Source of the DNA: Geothrix sp. 21YS21S-4
GTDB lineage: Bacteria; Acidobacteriota; Holophagae; Holophagales; Holophagaceae
Assembly (NCBI RefSeq): GCF_030845995.1
Contig: NZ_CP132719.1
Coordinates: forward strand, 434,001-498,000
DNA length: 64,000 bases
Reading direction: 5' to 3'
Part shown: piece by piece, positions 3,206-58,431 of the stretch
Numbering within the stretch: position 1 is the first letter of the stretch
How the letters are laid out: the number at the start of each line of letters is the position of its first letter
Position numbers and translations under genes: made by a program
Notes under the pieces: model-generated
What the model saw: the letters and a program-made list of their open reading frames with translations, nothing else
Database searches by the model: none
Told to the model about the DNA's origin: nothing

Positions 3206-4543
3206 TCAGCCCAGCCCCAGGTGCGCCTCCAGGAGGCGGCGGAAATCCAGGTCCAGGCCGTAGGGCTTCACGAGGATCTGCGCCACGCCCGTCTGCCGCG
3301 CGCCCACCACCAGTTCCGCGTCCACGGAATCCTCGGCGAGGATCACCGGCGGCATCTCCTCCTCCATCCGGCGGCGGAGGAGGGAGGCCAGGGCCAGGCC
3401 CTGGACCTCGGCGACGCCCCCGTCCACCAGGATCAGGTGGAGGCCGGGCCGGTCCAGGTGATCGAGAAGGCCCGTGAGGGTGTCGGCGAACAGGATCCGG
3501 CCGTAGCCGTCCTCCGTGAGGAAGGCGGCGAGCTCGTCCCGGGCCGGGCCGGCGGGCATCGCCAGGAGGATGCCGCGGGTCCGCTTCTTCACGCGGAGCA
3601 GCGCCTGGGAGCGCTCGTCCGGGGGCGGGGGCTCCTCCGCGGTCGCTGCCGGTGCGGGGGGCGGTGGAACGGGGGCCGCCGCAACGGGCGGTTCCGGCGC
3701 CGGGGGCAGGGGAGCGGGGGCCTCGGCGGCGGGCGCTGCTTCGCGGACGGGAGGGGCTTCCTTCTTGGCGACTGGGCGGGCTTCCTCGGGCTCCCGGGGC
3801 GGTTCCGGCGAGCGGCGGGCCTTGGGGGGGACGGCGGTGGGAATGGCGCCGGCGCGGCTGGCCACCAGGGCCTTGATCGGGGCGAGCAGCGCGTCCTTCC
3901 CGGATTCGAACGCGATGCCCACCAGCAGTCCCTGGCTGGCGTCGAGGTAGGCCACCCTTCCGGACAGCTCGATCGGCGGGCACTTGGGCAGCTTGGAGAG
4001 CTTCACCAGCATCAGTTCCTGGCCGACGGGCATCAGGTTCGCCCCCAGGTGCATCTTCCGCTGGGTCTTGACCTCCATGGCGCGGTCCACGCGGATGCAG
4101 ACGCCCCCTTCCGACACGTTCTCGATGGGGCCGCTGATCCCCACGCCGTCGAACAGGCTCATCAGGGCCGTGGCGGTGGCGCCCTCGCGCGCGTTCAGGC
4201 GGGCGCGGGGCTTCTTGCGGCGCTCGGCCAGGGCGATGGCGGCGGGGAGTTCGACGCCGGCGGTGCCGGCCTTGGCCTCCAGCAGGCGGGTGGTGGCCTT
4301 GAACCGCAGGCCCTCCAGAACGAAGACCAGGCTGAGCTCGGCGCCCTTCTCGACCGTCAGGGGGCCCTGGAGGTTGATCCCGACCCGCTCTTCCGTGACC
4401 GAGGTGACGAGGCCCGGAACGCCGCGGCCGTTGCGGTCCACCACGCTGATGGGGGTCCGAACGCGCTGGAGATCCTCCAGATAGGCCAACACCAGCTCGG
4501 AGCCCTCCGAGGACTTGGATTTTTTCAGCCCGAAAATGGCCAT
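3206..4543 (-). CDS. PilZ-domain protein with C-terminal receiver-like domain
   Basis: A 445-residue cytoplasmic protein in three parts. Residues about 1-100 resemble the YcgR N-terminal barrel. About 110-220 is a PilZ domain with the arginine motif ERRKKPRARLN and the NVSEGG turn, the two elements that bind cyclic-di-GMP. Residues about 235-310 are a Pro/Ala/Glu-rich linker, and the last 120 residues form a receiver-like fold with an aspartate after the third strand (LILVDGG) and a lysine in ILVKPYG. The ATG at 4543 is chosen for the AGGAG about 10 bases upstream. The combination suggests integration of c-di-GMP with a phosphorylation-like signal. The target is unknown, and divergence from hflX and proximity to lol genes give no direct clue. 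Confidence 0.8.
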   Translation of the reverse strand: MAIFGLKKSKSSEGSELVLAYLEDLQRVRTPISVVDRNGRGVPGLVTSVTEERVGINLQGPLTVEKGAELSLVFVLEGLRFKATTRLLEAKAGTAGVELPAAIALAERRKKPRARLNAREGATATALMSLFDGVGISGPIENVSEGGVCIRVDRAMEVKTQRKMHLGANLMPVGQELMLVKLSKLPKCPPIELSGRVAYLDASQGLLVGIAFESGKDALLAPIKALVASRAGAIPTAVPPKARRSPEPPREPEEARPVAKKEAPPVREAAPAAEAPAPLPPAPEPPVAAAPVPPPPAPAATAEEPPPPDERSQALLRVKKRTRGILLAMPAGPARDELAAFLTEDGYGRILFADTLTGLLDHLDRPGLHLILVDGGVAEVQGLALASLLRRRMEEEMPPVILAEDSVDAELVVGARQTGVAQILVKPYGLDLDFRRLLEAHLGLG

Positions 4544-34085: not shown

Positions 34086-36125
34086 TCAGGGTTTCCGCGG
34101 CTTGGGCTTTCCGAACCGCGGCGCGGGCTTGCCCGCCGGACGCTCCGTCGAACCTTCCCGGCGGGGACGCGCGGAACGGTCGGCGGGGCCGTGGGCGGAA
34201 CGCGGTCGCGCGTCGTCTTCGCCCGAGCGGGGGCGACTGGGGCGATCGGCCGGATTGAACGCGCGCCGGGGCCGCTCGTCGCCGTCATCGCGGCGGGGAC
34301 GGGCCGGGCGATCCGAGGGGCCCGCGGTGCGCCGGGGGCGCTCATCTCCGTCGTCGCGACGGGGACGGGCAGGGCGCTCCGTGGAGCTGAACGTGCGGCG
34401 GGGTCGCTCGTCGCCGTCATCGCGCCGAGGCCGGGCGGGACGATCCGCGGGACCCGCGGTGCGCCGGGGGCGCTCATCACCGTCGTCGCGGCGAGGACGG
34501 GCAGGGCGCTCCGTGGAGCCGAACGTGCGGCGGGGCCGCTCGTCGCCATCCTCGCGGCGGGGCCGCGCGGGGCGATCCGTGGGACCTGCGGTGCGCCGGG
34601 GGCGCTCATCCCCGTCGTCACGACGAGGGCGGGCAGGACGGTCCGTGGAACCGAACGCGCGGCGAGGACGCTCGTCGCCGTCATCGCGACGGGGCCGTGC
34701 GGGTCGATCCGAGGGGCCCGCGGTGCGGCGGGGGCGCTCATCCCCATCGTCACGACGGGGACGGGCCGGACGGTCCGTGGAGCCGAACGTGCGGCGGGGC
34801 CGTTCGTCGCCATCCTCGCGGCGGGGCCGCGCGGGGCGATCCGTGGGACCTGCGGTGCGCCGGGAGCGCTCATCACCGTCATCACGACGGGGAGGGGCAG
34901 GGCGGTCCGTGGAAGCGAACGTGCGGCGCGGGCGTTCATCGCCGTCGTCTCGCCGCGGATGGGAGGGCCGATCCGAGGCGCCGAAGGGACGGCGGGGGCG
35001 GTCCTCTCCGTCCTCGCGGCGGGGCCGTTCGCCGTCGTCGCGCCGGGGACGCTCGTCGGGGCGGTCCTCGAAGCGCTTGGCGCGGGCCACGCGCTTGAGC
35101 TTGTGGTCGCGGCTTTCGGTGGGATGGAAGATGCCCTCTTCGCCCTGGACGCCCGTGGAAGCGCGGTGGATGCGGGCCTGGTTGCGGAGGGCCTTGAGGG
35201 CGGCCTCCATATCGGCGGGCATGGGCGCGGTGACGGTGACCTGGTCCTCGGTGACGGGGTGCTTGAAGCCCAGCAGCTCGGCGTGCAGGGCCTGGCGGTC
35301 GAGGAGCGGGCTCTCCACGCCGTAGACCTGGTCGCCCAGCAGCGGGAAGCCGCGGTCGGCGAACTGGACGCGGATCTGGTTGCGGCGGCCGGTTTCCAGA
35401 CGCACTTCCACCACGGTGTGGCCCGGGAGGCGCTCCACCACGCGGTAGTGGGTGACGGCTTCCTTGGCGCCCGCGGGCATCCGCTTGCCGCCCCCGGGGC
35501 CCTTGCGGACCTTGGCCACGGACATCTTGAGCGACTTGGCGTGCTCGATCAGATGGCCCGCCAGGGTGCCGCTGTTCTCGGGCAATTCGCCCACGAGGAC
35601 GGCGCGGTACACGCGCTGGAGGCGGTGCAGCTCGAAGTGCTTCTTGAGGCCGTGGAGGGCTTCGGGGGTCTTGGCGAAGACCAGGACGCCGCTGGTGAAG
35701 CGGTCCAGGCGGTGGACGATGAACAGGTTGAAGCGCTTGAACCCGCGGCGGCGGTAGGACTCGGTGATGGCCTCCGCCAGGCTGGGCTCGCCGCCCTGTT
35801 CCGCCGGCACCGTGAGCAGCCCCGCGGGCTTGAACACGAACAGCAGGTGATTGTCCTCCCACAGCGCCTCGTAGGGCCCCGCAGTCAGCTTCTTGGCGGG
35901 AGGCAGCACGTCGTAGACGAGCTCGGGGTCGAACGCGACCTTCACGGCGTCGCCCGCCTTCAGCCGGAGGCCGTGCTTGTCGGCGATCTCGCCGTTCACC
36001 GTCACGCAGCGGCCGTCGATGAAGCCCTTGGCCTGCCGGTGGCTGATGACCATCACCTTGTGCAGTTCCGAAGCCAGGGCCGCGCCCTCGTGCTCCGCCT
36101 GCCATTCCCGTTCGATGCGTGCCAT
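34086..36125 (-). CDS. RluA-family 23S rRNA pseudouridine synthase with long repetitive charged tail
   Basis: A 679-residue protein. The first 330 residues are a standard enzyme: S4 RNA-binding domain (about 15-70, SHRQAKGFIDGRCVTVNG), then the RluA catalytic domain with HRLDRFTSGVLVF (catalytic D141), YRAVLVGE and TGRRNQIRVQF. The second half (about 345-679) is a low-complexity tail of some 12 copies of a 22-residue unit based on DRPARPRRDDGDERPRR, ending in a short K/P-rich segment. The tail is intrinsically disordered, with strongly alternating plus and minus charge. The ATG 36125 has GGAGGG seven bases upstream. Substrate uridines cannot be assigned. Plain RluA proteins are about 220-330 residues. 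Confidence 0.9.
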   Translation of the reverse strand: MARIEREWQAEHEGAALASELHKVMVISHRQAKGFIDGRCVTVNGEIADKHGLRLKAGDAVKVAFDPELVYDVLPPAKKLTAGPYEALWEDNHLLFVFKPAGLLTVPAEQGGEPSLAEAITESYRRRGFKRFNLFIVHRLDRFTSGVLVFAKTPEALHGLKKHFELHRLQRVYRAVLVGELPENSGTLAGHLIEHAKSLKMSVAKVRKGPGGGKRMPAGAKEAVTHYRVVERLPGHTVVEVRLETGRRNQIRVQFADRGFPLLGDQVYGVESPLLDRQALHAELLGFKHPVTEDQVTVTAPMPADMEAALKALRNQARIHRASTGVQGEEGIFHPTESRDHKLKRVARAKRFEDRPDERPRRDDGERPRREDGEDRPRRPFGASDRPSHPRRDDGDERPRRTFASTDRPAPPRRDDGDERSRRTAGPTDRPARPRREDGDERPRRTFGSTDRPARPRRDDGDERPRRTAGPSDRPARPRRDDGDERPRRAFGSTDRPARPRRDDGDERPRRTAGPTDRPARPRREDGDERPRRTFGSTERPARPRRDDGDERPRRTAGPADRPARPRRDDGDERPRRTFSSTERPARPRRDDGDERPRRTAGPSDRPARPRRDDGDERPRRAFNPADRPSRPRSGEDDARPRSAHGPADRSARPRREGSTERPAGKPAPRFGKPKPRKP
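34187..34977. repeat. 66-bp coding tandem repeat (12 units) with 132-bp higher-order period
   Basis: Eleven well-conserved and one degenerate 66-bp unit lie inside the pseudouridine synthase gene. The four residues closing each unit alternate between TFGS/AFGS and TAGP types, so pairs of units form a 132-bp super-repeat. Third-position differences between units show that the array is not a very recent expansion. The region has open frames on all strands, but only the minus-strand frame is joined to a known domain. Confidence 0.9.
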
Positions 36126-48577: not shown

Positions 48578-51500
48578 TCAGGCGCTGAAGTACCGCGCCT
48601 GCGGATGCCAGGCCACGAGGGCGCTGGTGGTGTATTCGGGGTCCATCTGATGGGTCTCGCTGAGGCGGACGCCGATGGCTTCGCCGCGCAGCAGGTCGAG
48701 AAGCGCGGCGTTGCCTTCGAGGTCGGGACACGCGGGATAGCCGTAGGAATAGCGGGAACCCTGGTAGCCCTGGGCGAACAGGGCGCGTCCCGGCAGATCC
48801 TTGCCGTCGATGCCCAGCTCGCGCCGGATGCGGGCGTGGACGCGCTCGGCGTAGGCTTCCGTCAGCTCCGTCGCTAGGCCGTGGAAGGCGAAGTAGTCGG
48901 CGTAGCCGTCCTCGGCGTAGAGCTGTACCGCGTGGTCCGCGGCGGCCTGGCCCAGGGTGACGAGTTGGAGCGCCAGGACGTCGCGGCGGTCGGCGCGGAA
49001 GAAGTCCGCGATGCAGAGGCGCCGCCCCGCCGCCTGGCGCGGGAAGGCCAGCCGGGCGAGGAGGCGCTTGGGATCCGCGGGGTCGAACACCCGCAGGGCG
49101 TCGCCGTCGGCCTGCGCCGGGAAGTAGCCGTAGCGGGCCTTCGGCTGGAGGACGGGATCGGCGGCCAGGCGCGTCTTCCAGGCGGCGAGCTGGGGCTCGG
49201 CCTTGTCCCGCAGGACGGCGACGAAGGCCGCGTCGCTGAGCTTGCCCTGCGCGAACCCCCACCGGTTGCGGATCAGGGCGAACGCGTCCAGGAACTCGAA
49301 CAGGTCCGCGGGCGCGTCCGCCAGTTCCCGCACGCCCCAGAAGGGCGGCTCCGGCGGCGGAGCGTCGTGGCGGACCCAGCTGCTCTGTCCCTGCGTGGTC
49401 AGCGGCACGGAGGCGCCGCCCCGCCGCAGGATCCGGATGTCCTCTCCCGCGGTTGGAGCGGGGACGGGGATTTCCGTCGACGCGCCGGGCGAGACGAGAG
49501 CCTGCATGTGCCGCAGCCCCTCGAAGGCGTCTTCGGCGTAGAGGACGGGCCCCGAGTAGGCGCGGCGGCAGTCGCCTTCCACGTAGTCGCGGGTGAGGGC
49601 CGCGCCGCCCAGGATGACGGGCACGCGCCGGCCCTGCTCCTCCAGGTAGTGGAGGTCCTCCTTCATCACGACCGTGGACTTCACCAGCAGCCCGGACAGC
49701 CCGATGGCGTCCGCGGGCCACGCCTCCAGTTCCTTGACGATGGCCTCGATGGGCTGCTTGATGCCCAGGTTCTTCACCTCGAACCCGTTGTTGCTGAGGA
49801 TGATGTCCACCAGGTTCTTGCCGATGTCGTGCACGTCGCCCTTCACGGTGGCCAGCAGGATGCGGCCCTTCCGGTAGTCCGCGCCTTCGCCCTTGGGCAG
49901 GTGCGGCTCGATGCGGCGGATGGCGGCCTTCATGGCCTCGGCGCTCTCCAGGACGAAGGGGAGCTGCATCTCGCCCGCGCCGAAGCGCTCGCCCACCACT
50001 TTCATGGCGCCCAGAAGCACCTCGTTGATGAGCATCAGGGGATCGTGGTCCTTCAGGGCCTCGTCCACGTCGGCGAGGATCGCCTGTTTGCCGCCGTCCA
50101 GGATGCCGCGGCGGAGGCGCTCCAGGACGGGCAGGTCGGCCCGGGATTCCGCCGCGGCGGCCTGCCGGCCGCTGAACCGCGCCAGGACGGCTTTCAGCGG
50201 ATCGTAGCCCTCGCTCCGCCGGTCGAAGATCAGGTCCTCCACGATGCGCCGGTCCTCGGGATCGATGGACGCCACGGGAATGACCTTCGAGGCGTTGAAG
50301 ATCGCCATGTCCAGGCCGTGCTTCACTCCGTGGTAGAGCATGAGGGCGTTCAGGACGTGGCGGGTGGCGGGGTTCAGACCGAAGCTCACGTTGCTGACGC
50401 CGAGCAGCGTCATCACGCCCGGAAGTTCGGCTTTGATCAGCCGCAGGGCCTCGAGCGTCTCCACCGCCGATCCGCGGAAGGCCTCGTCCCCGCTGCCCAG
50501 GGTGAAGGTGAGGGGATCGAGGATCAGGTCACCGGGATCCAGGCCGTACTCGCCCACCGCGAGGGCGTGCAGCCGCCGCGCCACTTCCAGCTTCTCCTCC
50601 CGGGTCTTCGCCATGCCGCGCTCGTCGATGGTGAGGCCCACCACCGCGGCGCCGTAGGTGCGGCACAGGTCCAGGATCCGGCGGGCCTTGGCCTCGCCGT
50701 CCTCGAAGTTGATGGAGTTCACCACGCACTTGCCGGGGCTCCGCTGGAGAGCCCGTTCGAGGACGGGCACCTCGGTGCTGTCGATCATCAGGGGCAGCGT
50801 CACCTGCGAGATCAGGCGCCCCAGCAGCTCGTCCACATCCCGCACTTCGTCACGCCCCACGAAGGCCACGCAGAGGTCCAGCAGGTGCGCGCCTTCCCGC
50901 TGCTGGTCTTTGGCCAGGGCGACGAGGCCGTCCCAGTCCTCGGCGGCCAGCAGGTCGCGGAATTTCTTGGACCCGTTCGCGTTCGTGCGCTCGCCGACGA
51001 TGAGCGGCGCGGGCTCCTGCCGCAGGGTCACGCTCTGGTAGAGGCTGGCGGCGCTGCGCTCCAGCTTCGGCGCGCGCTTCGGCGGATCGAGCTTCTCCAC
51101 GCCGGGCGCGAGGGCCCGGATATGGTCCGGCGTGGTGCCGCAGCAGCCGCCGACGATGGCCAGCCCGAACTCCCGGGCCGCGTGCAGCACCTTGGGCGCG
51201 AAGGTCGCCGGATCCAGCGGGTAGACCACCTGGCCGCCCACGTTCTGCGGAAGCCCGGCGTTGGGTAGGCAGCTGATGGAAAAGGGGCTGGCCTCCGCGA
51301 GGGTCTGCAGGTGCATGTGCATCTCGTCGGGCCCCGTGGCACAGTTGAGGCCCAGGACGTCGATGCCCAGCGGCTCGACGCTGGTGAGGACGGCGGAGAT
51401 GTCCGAGCCCACCAGCAGGGTGCCGGTGGTTTCCACCGTGGCCTGCACCCACAGCGGGATCCGGCGCTGCTTGGCGGCCATGGCCTCCCGCGCGGCTCGC

Positions 51501-52003
51501 ACGGCCACTTTGATTTGGCCCAGGTCCTGGCAGGTCTCGATGAGGATGGCGTCGGCGCCGCCGTCCAGCAGGCCCTCCATCTGGACGCGGTACGAGGCCA
51601 GCAGCTCCGCATAGCCCACGTGCCCCAGGGTGATCAGCTTGGTGCCCGGTCCCACGGAACCCACCACGAACCGCGACCGGTCGAAGCTGCGGGCCACTTC
51701 CTTCGCGAGGGAGGCGGCCTGGACGTTGAGGGCGTAGGCCTGGTCCGAGAGCCCGAATTCCCCCAGCACCAGCGGATTCGCGCCGAAGGTGTTGGTCTCC
51801 ACCGCGTCGGCCCCGGCCCGGAAATAGCTCTCGTGGATCTCGCGGATCCACTGGGGCCGCCGCTCGGTGAGCAGATCCACGCAGCCCTCCAGCGCCGCGC
51901 CGCCGTAGTCCTCCACCGTGGGCTGCCGGGCGAAGATCTGGGTCCCCATCCCGCCGTCCAGGAGCAGCACCTTGTCGCGGAGGAGGGTGTCGAGGGTCGT
52001 CAT
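48578..52003 (-). CDS. metH: Cobalamin-dependent methionine synthase
   Basis: A 1141-residue full-length MetH that methylates homocysteine from methyl-THF. Domains in order: Hcy-binding barrel (1-320) with zinc cysteines in VLGLNCATGP and GGCCGT; pterin-binding domain (330-600, IVGERTNANGSKKFRDLL); B12 cap and B12-binding domain (640-860) with VKGDVHDIGKNLV, where H725 is the cobalt ligand; and the AdoMet activation domain (890-1141) with ERVHARIRRELGI and YSYGYPACPDL. The activation domain requires an electron donor. The gene is last in the SAM-riboswitch operon after a [2Fe-2S] ferredoxin gene. A CGCAGATG palindrome lies at its start, 16 bases upstream. Confidence 0.97.
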   Translation of the reverse strand: MTTLDTLLRDKVLLLDGGMGTQIFARQPTVEDYGGAALEGCVDLLTERRPQWIREIHESYFRAGADAVETNTFGANPLVLGEFGLSDQAYALNVQAASLAKEVARSFDRSRFVVGSVGPGTKLITLGHVGYAELLASYRVQMEGLLDGGADAILIETCQDLGQIKVAVRAAREAMAAKQRRIPLWVQATVETTGTLLVGSDISAVLTSVEPLGIDVLGLNCATGPDEMHMHLQTLAEASPFSISCLPNAGLPQNVGGQVVYPLDPATFAPKVLHAAREFGLAIVGGCCGTTPDHIRALAPGVEKLDPPKRAPKLERSAASLYQSVTLRQEPAPLIVGERTNANGSKKFRDLLAAEDWDGLVALAKDQQREGAHLLDLCVAFVGRDEVRDVDELLGRLISQVTLPLMIDSTEVPVLERALQRSPGKCVVNSINFEDGEAKARRILDLCRTYGAAVVGLTIDERGMAKTREEKLEVARRLHALAVGEYGLDPGDLILDPLTFTLGSGDEAFRGSAVETLEALRLIKAELPGVMTLLGVSNVSFGLNPATRHVLNALMLYHGVKHGLDMAIFNASKVIPVASIDPEDRRIVEDLIFDRRSEGYDPLKAVLARFSGRQAAAAESRADLPVLERLRRGILDGGKQAILADVDEALKDHDPLMLINEVLLGAMKVVGERFGAGEMQLPFVLESAEAMKAAIRRIEPHLPKGEGADYRKGRILLATVKGDVHDIGKNLVDIILSNNGFEVKNLGIKQPIEAIVKELEAWPADAIGLSGLLVKSTVVMKEDLHYLEEQGRRVPVILGGAALTRDYVEGDCRRAYSGPVLYAEDAFEGLRHMQALVSPGASTEIPVPAPTAGEDIRILRRGGASVPLTTQGQSSWVRHDAPPPEPPFWGVRELADAPADLFEFLDAFALIRNRWGFAQGKLSDAAFVAVLRDKAEPQLAAWKTRLAADPVLQPKARYGYFPAQADGDALRVFDPADPKRLLARLAFPRQAAGRRLCIADFFRADRRDVLALQLVTLGQAAADHAVQLYAEDGYADYFAFHGLATELTEAYAERVHARIRRELGIDGKDLPGRALFAQGYQGSRYSYGYPACPDLEGNAALLDLLRGEAIGVRLSETHQMDPEYTTSALVAWHPQARYFSA

Positions 52004-52018
52004 GGGAAGGCCTTGCGT

Positions 52019-52107
52019 TTAACCGCAGATGTCGCAGATGGGCGCAGATGAATGAAGAAGCGCGTCGTGGCTTTTCATCTGCGAACTCTGCGTCATCTGC
52101 GGTTTCA
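52019..52107. repeat. Palindromic repeat, CGCAGATG family
   Basis: The left arm CCGCAGATG, TCGCAGATG, GGCGCAGATG repeats every 9-10 bases; the right arm mirrors it as CATCTGCG ... CTCTGCGTCATCTGCGG. It lies in the 110-base gap between metH and the ferredoxin gene, six bases from the ferredoxin stop. It has the same design as the CACCAAG family but a different motif. Confidence 0.85.
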
Positions 52108-52113
52108 TGTTTT

Positions 52114-52401
52114 TCAAATCCCCAAATACTCGATGTCCACGTCCCCGTGGACGCTGACCTGGCAGGCGAGGCGCTGGTCGGGAGGCGCGTCCAGGCCCTT
52201 CAGGAAGTCGCGCTCTTCGGGGCTGGGTTCGTTGCAGTGCGCCAGGCCCCGGGCGACGCGGACGCGGCAGGTGCCGCAGGAGCCCGTCCGGCAGCCGAAG
52301 GTGATGTCCGCCCCCGCCGCGTCGGCGATCCGCTGCAGCGCCGCCCCCGCGGGCGCCTCCACCAGCAGATCCTCCAGGAGGAAGTGGACCTTCACGGACA
52401 T
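52114..52401 (-). CDS. [2Fe-2S] plant/vertebrate-type ferredoxin
   Basis: A 95-residue single-domain ferredoxin. The cluster ligands are visible in FGCRTGSCGTCRV (C-x4-C-x2-C) and the fourth in RLACQV, as in plant-type ferredoxins and NADH-linked oxygenase donors. It is encoded between an MTHFR gene and metH in one operon, so it is a likely electron donor to MTHFR or for reductive reactivation of MetH cob(II)alamin. The whole gene is bracketed by two different palindromic repeats (52019-52107 and 52430-52507). No ferredoxin reductase is adjacent. Confidence 0.92.
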   Translation of the reverse strand: MSVKVHFLLEDLLVEAPAGAALQRIADAAGADITFGCRTGSCGTCRVRVARGLAHCNEPSPEERDFLKGLDAPPDQRLACQVSVHGDVDIEYLGI

Positions 52402-52429
52402 GGAACACCCGATTCACGGAGGGAAAGAT

Positions 52430-52507
52430 CACCACCAAGGCACCAAGACACCAAGAAAGACAAGAACAGGTTTTTGCAGTTCTTGGTGCCTTGGTGTCTT
52501 GGTGGTG
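52430..52507. repeat. Dispersed palindromic repeat, CACCAAG family, copy 3
   Basis: The best-preserved copy: CACCACCAAGGCACCAAG-ACACCAAG on the left and CTTGGTGCCTTGGTGTCTTGGTGGTG on the right, with a 25-base interior. It sits inside the operon, 28 bases before the ferredoxin start and 16 bases after the MTHFR stop. Confidence 0.9.
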
Positions 52508-52523
52508 AGCAGGTGTTCTTCAC

Positions 52524-54386
52524 TTATTCCTCCCGTTTCGGCAGCAGCGGCGCGACGAGTTCGACTTGGCCGAAGGGGGCGCTCAGTTGGAGGCCGCGCA
52601 CGCGGGGGCGGATGGTTTCGATGACCTCCTGGGCGATGGCGAGGCCCTCCTTCACCTGGTCCTCGGCGGTGGACCATTTCGCCATGCGGGCCAGGATCGC
52701 GGGGGGGACGAAGGCGCCGGGCACTTCGTTGGCCATGAACTCGGCGTTGCGCAGGCTCTTGAGGGGCCAGATGCCGGCGATGATGGGCAGACCTCCCTTC
52801 CCGTCGAGGGCCTCGGTGAAATCGAGGAACCGGAACAGGGTGTCGGCCTCGAAGATGGGCTGGGTGATGGCCCATTGCGCGCCGGCTTCCACCTTGTAGC
52901 GGAAGCGGGACTTCTCGCGGTCCAGGTCGGTGGCGGCGGGGTTGGCGCCCACGCCCACGCTGAAGGAGGTGGGCTTGCCGATGCCGGCGCCGCCCAGATC
53001 CAGGCCGGTGTTCAGCCGCTTGAGCATGTTGACGAGCCCGATGGAATCCACGTCGAAGACGGCGGTGGCCTGGGGATAGGGGCCCAGCTTGGGCGGGTCG
53101 CCGGTCACGGCCAAGAGGTTGCGGAGGCCCAGCCCCGCGGCGCCCAGCAGGTCGCTCTGCATCCCCAGCAGGTTCCGGTCGCGGCAGGCGTAGTGGAGGA
53201 TGGTCTCCACGCCCACGCGCTGCTCGATGATCAGGGCCGTGGCGAGGGCGGACATGCGGGCCATGGCGCGGGGCCCGTCGGGGACGTTGATGGCGTCCAC
53301 GCCCAGGGCCCGGCACTGGCGGGTCTTGGCGAGCAGCTTGTCGTACTCCATGCCCCGCGGAGGCACCAGCTCCACGGTGTGGACGAACTCGCCCTGGGCC
53401 AGCTTCAGGCTGAAGTGGCTGCGGTAGGCGAAGGGAACCTCCGGCTGGGGCTGCTCGTGGGGCTTGGGCTCGAAGCCGCTGCTTCCCTGGATGAAGGCCC
53501 GCTCCTGGCGGAAGGCGCCGCGCATGGCGCGGATGTGGGCGGCGGTGGTGCCGCTGCACCCGCCCACGGCCCGCGCTCCGGCGGCCAGGGCGCGGGCGGC
53601 GAACTCGCCCAGGTACTCGGGACTGGCGCCGTAGATCAGCCGCCCGTCCACCTGCCGGGGGAGGCCCGGATTCGGCTGCAGAACGATGGGCTTGGCCGTG
53701 GCGGCCTTGAGGCGGTCCAGCAGGCGGAGGTGGGGCGCCGGGCCGTTCCCCCCGATGAGTCCCACCAGGTGGGCGCCCCAGGCGTCCAGCTGCTTGATGA
53801 ACCAGTCGGGCTCCGCGCCGAAGAGGGCCTGCCCCTCGTCATTGGTGGTCATCAGGGCCGCGATGGGGAGGGGCGCCAGCTCCTGCACGGCGAGCAGAGC
53901 CTGGCGGATCTCGTTCAGGTCCTCGAAGCCTTCGAGGACGATGAGGTCGGCGCCGGCTTCGATCAGGGAGGCGGCCTGCTCCCGGAACAGGGCGCGGGCC
54001 TCGTCGAAGGAGGTGGGCCCCCAGGGTTCGATCCGGATCCCCAGAGGGCCGATGCACCCCGCCACCCAGGCGCGGGCGCCCTGCTGGGCGACGGCCTGCC
54101 GGGCCAGGGCCACGCCCTCCCGGTTGATGGCGTCCATCTGGGCGTCGAGGCCCCGGGCGGCGAGCTTCAGCCGGCCCGCGCCCCAGGTGTTGGTGGTGAG
54201 CACCTGGGCGCCGGCGGCCAGGAACTCGCCGTGAATGGCCAGCAGCAGGTCCGGCGCCTTGAGGTTGCACTCCTCGAAGCTGCGTTGGAGGGTGATGCCC
54301 CGGTCGTGCAGGGCCGTGGCGGTGCTCCCGTCGAAGAGGAAGCATTCGCCCGCGTCGAGGGCCTGCTGGAAGGAGGGGAAGGTCAT
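52524..54386 (-). CDS. Homocysteine S-methyltransferase-like / methylenetetrahydrofolate reductase fusion
   Basis: A 620-residue YitJ-type fusion. The N-terminal Hcy-type barrel (1-300; FDGSTATALHDRG, TTNTWGAGRLK) precedes the MTHFR domain (about 325-610; VELVPPRGMEYDKLL, VTGDPPKLG, AQWAITQPIFEADTLFRFL), which binds FAD and makes 5-methyl-THF. The zinc-ligand cysteines of the Hcy domain are mostly lost: the GLNC position reads GLIGGNGP and GGCC reads GGCSG. In the window's own MetH all are present. The Hcy half is thus probably not a methyltransferase, and the protein may serve chiefly as the MTHFR. It is first in the operon, with a SAM-I riboswitch in its leader. Confidence 0.9.
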   Translation of the reverse strand: MTFPSFQQALDAGECFLFDGSTATALHDRGITLQRSFEECNLKAPDLLLAIHGEFLAAGAQVLTTNTWGAGRLKLAARGLDAQMDAINREGVALARQAVAQQGARAWVAGCIGPLGIRIEPWGPTSFDEARALFREQAASLIEAGADLIVLEGFEDLNEIRQALLAVQELAPLPIAALMTTNDEGQALFGAEPDWFIKQLDAWGAHLVGLIGGNGPAPHLRLLDRLKAATAKPIVLQPNPGLPRQVDGRLIYGASPEYLGEFAARALAAGARAVGGCSGTTAAHIRAMRGAFRQERAFIQGSSGFEPKPHEQPQPEVPFAYRSHFSLKLAQGEFVHTVELVPPRGMEYDKLLAKTRQCRALGVDAINVPDGPRAMARMSALATALIIEQRVGVETILHYACRDRNLLGMQSDLLGAAGLGLRNLLAVTGDPPKLGPYPQATAVFDVDSIGLVNMLKRLNTGLDLGGAGIGKPTSFSVGVGANPAATDLDREKSRFRYKVEAGAQWAITQPIFEADTLFRFLDFTEALDGKGGLPIIAGIWPLKSLRNAEFMANEVPGAFVPPAILARMAKWSTAEDQVKEGLAIAQEVIETIRPRVRGLQLSAPFGQVELVAPLLPKREE

Positions 54387-54465
54387 GGATGCGCCTGCGC
54401 CGGGGTGGCGCTCAGGGCAGTCTTCATCGGCATCCAGAGGGTCTCGGGCCAGTCTGATCGGATTG

Positions 54466-54566
54466 GTATCTTCCCCCCGGCGAGACCGGGGGCAGGAGTT
54501 GGCACCTTGCGTTCGCAGGTTGCCAAGGTTTCACAGGGCCTTTCCCTCCACCTTTCTGGATAGCGC
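54466..54566 (-). promoter_or_regulatory. SAM-I (S-box) riboswitch of the MTHFR-ferredoxin-metH operon
   Basis: The minus strand has AGAAAGGTGGAGGGA, GGCCC, GTGAAACC, GGCAACC, the P3 hairpin, GGTGCCAACTCCTGC, a P4 hairpin CCCCCGG/CCGGGGG, and P1 TATC/GATA. It ends 80 bases before the start of the MTHFR fusion; a GCGCC/GGCGC hairpin (54397-54411) lies just before the start codon and could be a translational expression platform. Confidence 0.95.
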
Positions 54567-58363: not shown

Positions 58364-58431
58364 TCACCACCCAGGCACGAAGACACCAAGAAAAGGTCTG
58401 CCCTCGTTGATGGGTTCCTGGCGATGATCTT
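58364..58431. repeat. Dispersed palindromic repeat, CACCAAG family, degenerate copy 4
   Basis: The left arm CACCACCCAGGCACGAAGACACCAAG is recognisable; the right arm has decayed. An additional outer inverted repeat TCAACGAGGG/CCCTCGTTGA crosses it (about 58348-58410). It lies directly after recN. Confidence 0.65.

Follow-up and report, generated by a model that had tools for sequence, protein, structure and literature searches.

The window, a stretch of 64,000 nt from the genome of Geothrix sp. 21YS21S-4, carries a leftward unit made up of a SAM-I riboswitch, a gene for a fusion of homocysteine methyltransferase and methylenetetrahydrofolate reductase (MTHFR), a gene for a 95-aa [2Fe-2S] ferredoxin and a full-length metH (Table 1). 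A preliminary description of the DNA had reported this unit, and its coordinates proved exact. The riboswitch aptamer scored 81.4 bits (E 1.3e-17) with RF00162, whose gathering score is 44.4. The fusion protein scored 613 bits with NF006396 (cut-off 453), and its MTHFR half is the single match to PF02219 in the whole genome. The description of metH as full-length was borne out by a score of 1202.6 bits with TIGR02082 (cut-off 1011) and by the presence of all five modules, PF02574, PF00809, PF02607, PF02310 and the B12 activation domain PF02965.

Table 1. Features of the operon, with positions in the window
Feature	Position	Strand	Basis
SAM-I (S-box) riboswitch aptamer, operon head	54463..54566	-	Rfam RF00162
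Bifunctional homocysteine S-methyltransferase/methylenetetrahydrofolate reductase (PRK08645/YitJ type), 620 aa	52524..54386	-	PF02574 + PF02219
Intergenic inverted repeat (hairpin), MTHFR/ferredoxin gap, dispersed-repeat type	52425..52525	-	-52.8 kcal/mol, z -9.1
[2Fe-2S] ferredoxin (Fer2), 95 aa	52114..52401	-	PF00111 + cluster cysteines
Intergenic inverted repeat (hairpin), ferredoxin/metH gap	52010..52115	-	-47.6 kcal/mol, z -6.7
metH, cobalamin-dependent methionine synthase, 1141 aa	48578..52003	-	TIGR02082 + five Pfam modules
Activation (reactivation) domain of MetH, where the ferredoxin is proposed to act	48581..49408	-	PF02965 match, residues 945-1140
Activation-domain segment deleted in g11 MetH, about residues 1068-1081, N-terminal to R-x-x-x-G-Y motif	48761..48802	-	Alignment

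The two gaps that flank the ferredoxin gene in this genome are ~110-120 bp long and contain strong hairpin repeats, while most relatives have overlapping genes or a spacing of 1-2 bp. A 23-mer from the hairpin in the MTHFR/ferredoxin gap recurs at position 1237 and, less exactly, at 58368, where none is expected by chance.

The ferredoxin and its family

With a score of 44.8 bits for PF00111 (cut-off 21), the 95-aa protein belongs to the Fer2 family. In an alignment of 23 sequences the cluster ligands, Cys37-x4-Cys42-x2-Cys45 ... Cys80, are invariant, as is a fifth cysteine, C56. The nearest solved structure by sequence is Ferredoxin-4 (PDB 9i2a; E 5e-12 with the single sequence and 2.5e-17 with a profile), which differs in having no cysteine where C56 stands. 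The protein does not belong to the plant-type photosynthetic ferredoxins, scoring 25.6 bits with TIGR02008 against a subfamily cut-off of 81. For the Geothrix protein, we infer cluster binding, the potential, docking on the Cob/Act domains of MetH and the reductant by which the ferredoxin is itself reduced.

The ferredoxin family is present in 63 of 77 Holophagaceae genomes, and each copy adjoins the MTHFR gene, metH or both. Its members score at least 149 bits while the next best match reaches 57 bits, and no member was found among the non-Holophagaceae Acidobacteriota in a sample of 396 genomes. The order MTHFR-ferredoxin-metH, whose conservation in relatives the preliminary description had proposed as a check, spans nine genera with varying outer flanks; it is far from chance because the same order occurs in every Holophagaceae genome that has the ferredoxin. 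Over 54 distinct loci, the median gap is -4 bp between MTHFR and ferredoxin genes and 1 bp between ferredoxin gene and metH. Even the streamlined genomes of 0.9-1.2 Mb (loci L096 and L097) keep the operon, with overlapping genes. A SAM-I riboswitch scoring above the RF00162 threshold lies 5′ of the operon in most loci and lineages searched, and also in G005, a genome that has lost the ferredoxin by a single deletion that took the end of the MTHFR gene as well and left the metH ORF intact. The preliminary description had named absence or scattering of the gene in close relatives as evidence against its reading. We found that the gene is not scattered, and that it is missing from a retained operon only in G005, an isolated deletion, and in the genus g11. 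The words 'dedicated' and 'co-regulated by SAM' are well supported by synteny, by translational coupling and by the riboswitch in most lineages tested.

Control by a SAM-I riboswitch would also be expected if the ferredoxin shared only its regulation with its neighbors and fed some other need at low SAM, for instance a radical-SAM enzyme, the assembly of Fe-S clusters or the assimilation of sulfur. A weak similarity to ISC ferredoxins points the same way, but the score of 32.1 bits with TIGR02007 lies under the equivalog cut-off of 132.1 and places the protein outside that group. Moreover, the ferredoxin is never found apart from MTHFR or metH, and three genomes without it (G002, G046 and G061) likewise have no MTHFR or metH matches. 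We regard this explanation as very unlikely.

Electron acceptor of the ferredoxin

The 95-aa protein is probably a dedicated low-potential [2Fe-2S] donor for the reductive reactivation of MetH. When the cofactor of MetH has become inactive cob(II)alamin, the ferredoxin would supply a single low-potential electron to form cob(I)alamin, which the activation domain would then remethylate with SAM. The ferredoxin would thereby take the role that flavodoxin has for the E. coli enzyme. At low SAM it would be produced together with MetH and with the MTHFR that makes methyl-folate. Plant-type [2Fe-2S] ferredoxins have potentials near -400 mV; at such a potential the SAM-trapped reaction would have to pull the reduction of cob(II), as it does with flavodoxin.

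The preliminary description had left the acceptor as either MetH or MTHFR. This choice can now be made in part: the activation domain of MetH is favored by co-variation in g11, by the missing flavodoxin and by a complementary genus with flavodoxin, g3, and MTHFR has become the less likely partner. The evidence that separates the two acceptors comes from two small lineages and suggests MetH. The g11 lineage retains MTHFR and metH with no ferredoxin gene between them. Its MetH has lost ~15 conserved residues of the activation domain, in a segment that is present in both E. coli and Thermus MetH. The activation domain also holds 10 of the 19 fixed MetH substitutions (odds ratio 4.6, p 0.0017) in a sample of two MAGs with usable MetH from one lineage, which amounts to one evolutionary event. 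Among columns that are otherwise invariant, 32% are changed in this domain compared with 10-19% in the other domains, and none of the control clades that have the ferredoxin shows such an excess. One of the substitutions in g11, D906N, was considered as the loss of a SAM ligand. This candidate was weakened, since Thermus MetH carries Asn at the same position and is active (PMC10567725), so that the change is not inactivating per se. It may also be that g11 is simply losing reactivation for some other reason.

Several observations count against a role specific to MetH: the ferredoxin gene is coupled to MTHFR as tightly as to metH, the metH ORF of G005 is intact although the ferredoxin is gone, and the Geothrix genome encodes further ferredoxins. 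The ferredoxin could instead donate electrons to the MTHFR half of the fusion in place of NAD(P)H, its position before metH being incidental. In most relatives the MTHFR stop codon lies inside or directly next to the ferredoxin gene, the deletion in G005 removed the MTHFR end and the ferredoxin together, and ferredoxin-dependent MTHFRs do exist (PMC8515935, PMC8760232). Those that have been characterized, however, are complexes of the MetVF type, in which the MetV subunit carries a [4Fe-4S] cluster, as in Clostridium ljungdahlii (PMC8515935), and share with the Geothrix system the use of ferredoxin as donor only if MTHFR is the acceptor. They require MetV, which is neither fused to the Geothrix MTHFR nor encoded in the operon, and judged by the fusion and the operon the Geothrix enzyme falls outside the MetVF type. 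In addition, other Acidobacteriota (L155, L162 and L167) have the same type of fusion next to metH with no ferredoxin gene there, and the MTHFR domain of g11, with 1 fixed difference and 7% of invariant columns changed, lies within the range of the controls. Donation to MTHFR alone is consequently unlikely. An attempt to read the NAD(P)H-binding residues of MTHFR off solved structures was given up, the alignments being too remote.

A single ferredoxin might also serve both enzymes, perhaps within a complex for methyl transfer between MTHFR and MetH. Its invariant middle position and its coupling to each neighbor are consistent with such an arrangement, but MTHFR did not respond to the absence of the ferredoxin. 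Furthermore, MTHFR requires two electrons at catalytic flux while MetH requires one, and only occasionally. We consider service to both enzymes quite unlikely.

Other reductants and known systems

Donation to MetH, the preferred reading, can be set beside the other reductants that the genomes encode. No recognizable flavodoxin was found in the Holophagaceae genomes that have the ferredoxin; their best PF00258 matches score 27-44 bits, and those inspected are WrbA/FMN-reductase proteins. A true flavodoxin is likewise missing from the window's genome, whose sole PF00258 match (29 bits) is an NQO/FMN-reductase-like (NAD(P)H:quinone-oxidoreductase-like) protein. The only genus with a real FldA flavodoxin is g3, which has no such ferredoxin. 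One of its genomes, G050, encodes a true long-chain FldA (173.7 bits with TIGR01752), and its congener G051 has a canonical MetH (375 bits with PF02965). A search of the Geothrix genome for RACo_C_ter (PF14574) gave no match, while the control genome of Methanosarcina acetivorans matched; the Geothrix genome therefore has no ATP-driven reactivator of the RamA/RACo family. From these comparisons of genomes, there is about an even chance that the family as a whole has exchanged flavodoxin for a purpose-made [2Fe-2S] ferredoxin under SAM-riboswitch control as the reductant of MetH at its activation domain, and that g11 is a natural knock-out, its activation domain having decayed in step with the loss of the carrier.

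The proposed system has in common with the reactivation of E. coli MetH by flavodoxin (FldA) and Fpr the activation domain PF02965, SAM as methyl donor and a small one-electron carrier. It differs in that the carrier is a [2Fe-2S] ferredoxin whose gene lies beside metH under SAM-I control. The ATP-dependent corrinoid reactivators of the RamA/RACo/DUF4445 type (Phaeobacter, Desulfovibrio) also feed corrinoid reduction from an iron-sulfur center. In those systems the ferredoxin domain lies inside the DUF4445 protein and serves a MetH without activation domain (PMC5764234), whereas Geothrix has a stand-alone ferredoxin and a MetH with activation domain. In the chloromethane clusters of Methylobacterium, genes for a corrinoid methyltransferase and metF accompany that of another [2Fe-2S] protein, a PaaE-like ferredoxin-reductase, which has been proposed to reactivate cob(II) (PMC3621897). 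That protein is a two-domain FAD/[2Fe-2S] reductase with a catabolic role and no link to MetH or a riboswitch. Our literature search found no paper that deals with methionine synthesis in Geothrix or describes a [2Fe-2S] protein as electron donor to MetH; the parts are known singly, and we did not find the combined arrangement described.

A metH-linked ferredoxin throughout a family, together with a ferredoxin-less lineage that shows matching damage in the activation domain, turns the reduction of MetH without flavodoxin or a RamA-like protein into a testable question. If the proposal is true, the activation domain of MetH accepts an iron-sulfur donor, which would aid the annotation of electron donors for B12 enzymes and help to account for which methionine synthases function in a foreign host.

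Outside the Holophagaceae, no Fer2 protein of any kind adjoins metH at the 40 loci searched. In family f10, a NuoI-like 2[4Fe-4S] protein is encoded directly upstream of metH at 26 of 30 loci. We rejected it as a convergent ferredoxin for MetH: nearly every f10 genome has one copy, its scores identify it as NuoI, and some genomes contain no other strong NuoI. A match of the Geothrix ferredoxin to the corrinoid-regeneration protein AcsV (25 bits) was also dropped, as unrelated Fer2 proteins match likewise. Cyanobacterial relatives of the ferredoxin, ~50% identical to it in the first 52 residues, adjoin the corrinoid gene cobQ, an observation that is suggestive and was not used as support.

The operon in the window and across Holophagaceae

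The preliminary description had placed a riboswitch, a fusion gene, a ferredoxin gene and metH in one leftward row, and all four parts were confirmed in the window, which spans 434,001-498,000 of a complete genome (3.08 Mb) from the Geothrix/Holophagaceae group. Two SAM-I riboswitches are present, one of them before a gene for a PLP enzyme; therefore the methionine genes of this region make up a regulon under riboswitch control.

Features of the ferredoxin operon and its surroundings (window positions unless a locus is named)
Feature	Position	Direction	Remarks
SAM-I riboswitch	54566-54463	leftward	
Homocysteine-methyltransferase/MTHFR fusion gene	54386-52524	leftward	
Fer2 ferredoxin gene	52401-52114	leftward	95 aa
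Hairpin repeats	52425-52525 and 52010-52115		both sides of ferredoxin gene
metH	52003-48578	leftward	complete, activation domain included
Second SAM-I riboswitch	47747-47647		81.8 bits; just downstream of operon
Cys/Met-metabolism PLP enzyme gene (PF01053)	47258-45963		headed by second SAM-I riboswitch
Deletion junction in Geothrix genome G005	L086, about 3640-3676		

We compared 77 genomes of the order; these belong to Holophagaceae, as does every named close relative. A strong ferredoxin match was found in 63, and by position every match in these 63 adjoins MTHFR and/or metH. Gene order was identical in all fetched loci (local searches), and the outer flanks differ. Among 396 Acidobacteriota genomes the ferredoxin family profile matched Holophagaceae only, with a gap of 149 versus 57 bits. 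Genomes of 0.9-1.2 Mb (L096, L097), to judge by their size probably of the freshwater genus UBA12189/Acidiparvus, the sole streamlined genus of Holophagaceae (PMC11561045), keep the operon and also its gene overlaps. A fifth, non-ligand cysteine, C56 (window about 52234-52236), is invariant in 23/23 aligned MetH-operon ferredoxins (alignment A1); the nearest solved structure, Ferredoxin-4 (9i2a), has no corresponding cysteine.

Most ferredoxin-operon loci searched carry a SAM-I leader over threshold; none was found at L050, L065, L073 or L099. In L073 (UBA706) the operon is preceded, at a distance of ~2.3 kb, by a lysine riboswitch at 2657-2836. In the Acidobacteriota family f22, RF00521, the alpha-proteobacterial SAM riboswitch class, lies upstream of metH on the same strand (L144, L145, L147, L148).

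Across 54 distinct loci, the MTHFR stop and the ferredoxin start overlap or nearly touch (median -4 bp), and a median of 1 bp separates the ferredoxin stop from metH. The window's genome belongs to those with longer gaps, both filled by strong hairpin repeats; since such gaps are mostly missing from relatives, the repeats look like recent insertions. The one upstream of the ferredoxin gene is dispersed, with another copy at 1237 and a less exact one at 58368. Elsewhere in the window, a 66-nt unit repeated ten times in tandem at 34156-35049 (67-79% identity in 300-nt comparisons) probably encodes a repeat protein.

Genomes without the ferredoxin

Three genomes (G002, G046, G061) gave no match to MTHFR, ferredoxin or metH. 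G005, a Geothrix, may be a natural ferredoxin mutant: after a deletion, only the last six residues of the ferredoxin remain, fused to MTHFR at about residue 546, and metH is untouched. In genus g3 (G050, G051) MTHFR is divergent and the operon-type ferredoxin missing; the metH of G051 is distant and sited elsewhere. Genus g11 (G073, G075, G076) keeps both MTHFR and MetH, with no strong ferredoxin match in its three genomes. MTHFR and metH of G073 share one contig, separated by an unrelated ORF of 471 aa and not by a ferredoxin gene. Because g11 is sister to all ferredoxin-bearing lineages on the MetH tree, the ferredoxin may have been gained once g11 had branched off, or lost in g11.

Flavodoxin reactivates E. 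coli MetH. Ferredoxin-bearing Holophagaceae gave either no Flavodoxin_1 match or weak ones of 27-44 bits: the proteins examined, at L106 and L138, are WrbA/FMN-reductase proteins, and the two highest matches (L136, L137) sit in ORFs >430 aa. In g11 the matches belong to flavodiiron-type proteins, as judged by Pfam for L134 and by sequence for L135. G050 encodes a true flavodoxin of the long-chain type, above cut-off with the TIGR01752 and FldA models; G051 has comparable Flavodoxin_1 matches, and the activation domain of its MetH is canonical (PF02965, 375 bits). Carrier and reactivation domain thus pair up in three patterns: g3 combines flavodoxin with a canonical domain, most genera combine this ferredoxin with an intact domain, and g11 has neither carrier and an altered domain.

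MetH or MTHFR as the possible partner of the ferredoxin

If only one of the two enzymes is served by the ferredoxin, it would be expected to stand out in g11. Among columns invariant in ferredoxin-bearing species, g11 changed 32% in the MetH activation domain, compared with 10% in Hcy, 12% in Fol, 19% in Cap and 11% in Cob. This domain holds 10 of 19 fixed g11 substitutions (odds ratio 4.6, Fisher p 0.0017, an indication and not proof, as columns are taken as independent and g11 is one lineage); seven control groups of ferredoxin-bearing species lacked the enrichment. Both g11 MetHs are missing ~15 residues just ahead of the R-x-x-x-G-Y motif, a segment that the MetHs of E. coli and Thermus have. 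In G073 Leu replaces the Tyr of this motif, which is described as universally conserved and important in reactivation (PMC10567725). The metH matches of families f27 and f45 hold one in-frame stop (G360, G374, G339, G154, G109, G400, G149, G266), suggesting that the gene is divided between two ORFs there.

The ferredoxin could instead serve MTHFR. This reading is weaker, because the ferredoxin-dependent MTHFRs so far characterised carry MetV (PMC8515935) and because MTHFR did not respond where the ferredoxin is missing: its g11 domain has one fixed difference and 7% of columns changed, as in control groups. The earlier proposal of a donor to MetH or MTHFR is supported in part and narrowed towards MetH.

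Proposed role and known systems

We propose that low SAM would permit read-out of the operon through the SAM-I leader. MTHFR would supply methyl-folate and MetH produce methionine; the co-made ferredoxin would give the electron that rescues accidentally oxidised MetH, whose cobalt SAM would then remethylate. The proposal builds on the observed genes, order, coupling, riboswitch, distribution and co-variation; cluster content, potential, docking and upstream reductant of the ferredoxin are inferred.

The proposed function resembles that of flavodoxin in MetH reactivation. The arrangement is not of the RamA/RACo kind (PMC5764234), and the window's genome has no RACo_C_ter protein; nor is it a MetVF MTHFR. 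A [2Fe-2S] protein, the PaaE-like reductase of chloromethane clusters, has been suggested to act in corrinoid reactivation (PMC3621897). A literature search that covered few subscription journals turned up no account of a stand-alone ferredoxin tied to metH. The parts are known and the arrangement is Holophagaceae-specific; the absence of the ferredoxin from g11 offers a natural test case.

Other iron-sulfur proteins were seen elsewhere. Cyanobacterial loci L076, L078 and L079 encode Fer2 proteins of 79-84 aa directly downstream of a cobQ-like gene; these match the beginning of the Geothrix protein at ~50% identity. In the Acidobacteriota family f10, a gene for a NuoI-like 2[4Fe-4S] protein lies directly upstream of metH in 26/30 loci (L151, L152, L153, L188, L189, L191, L192, L194 and most of L195-L223). 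Where examined, it stands apart from other nuo genes, and at least G459 additionally has a normal NuoI beside a NuoH-like gene.
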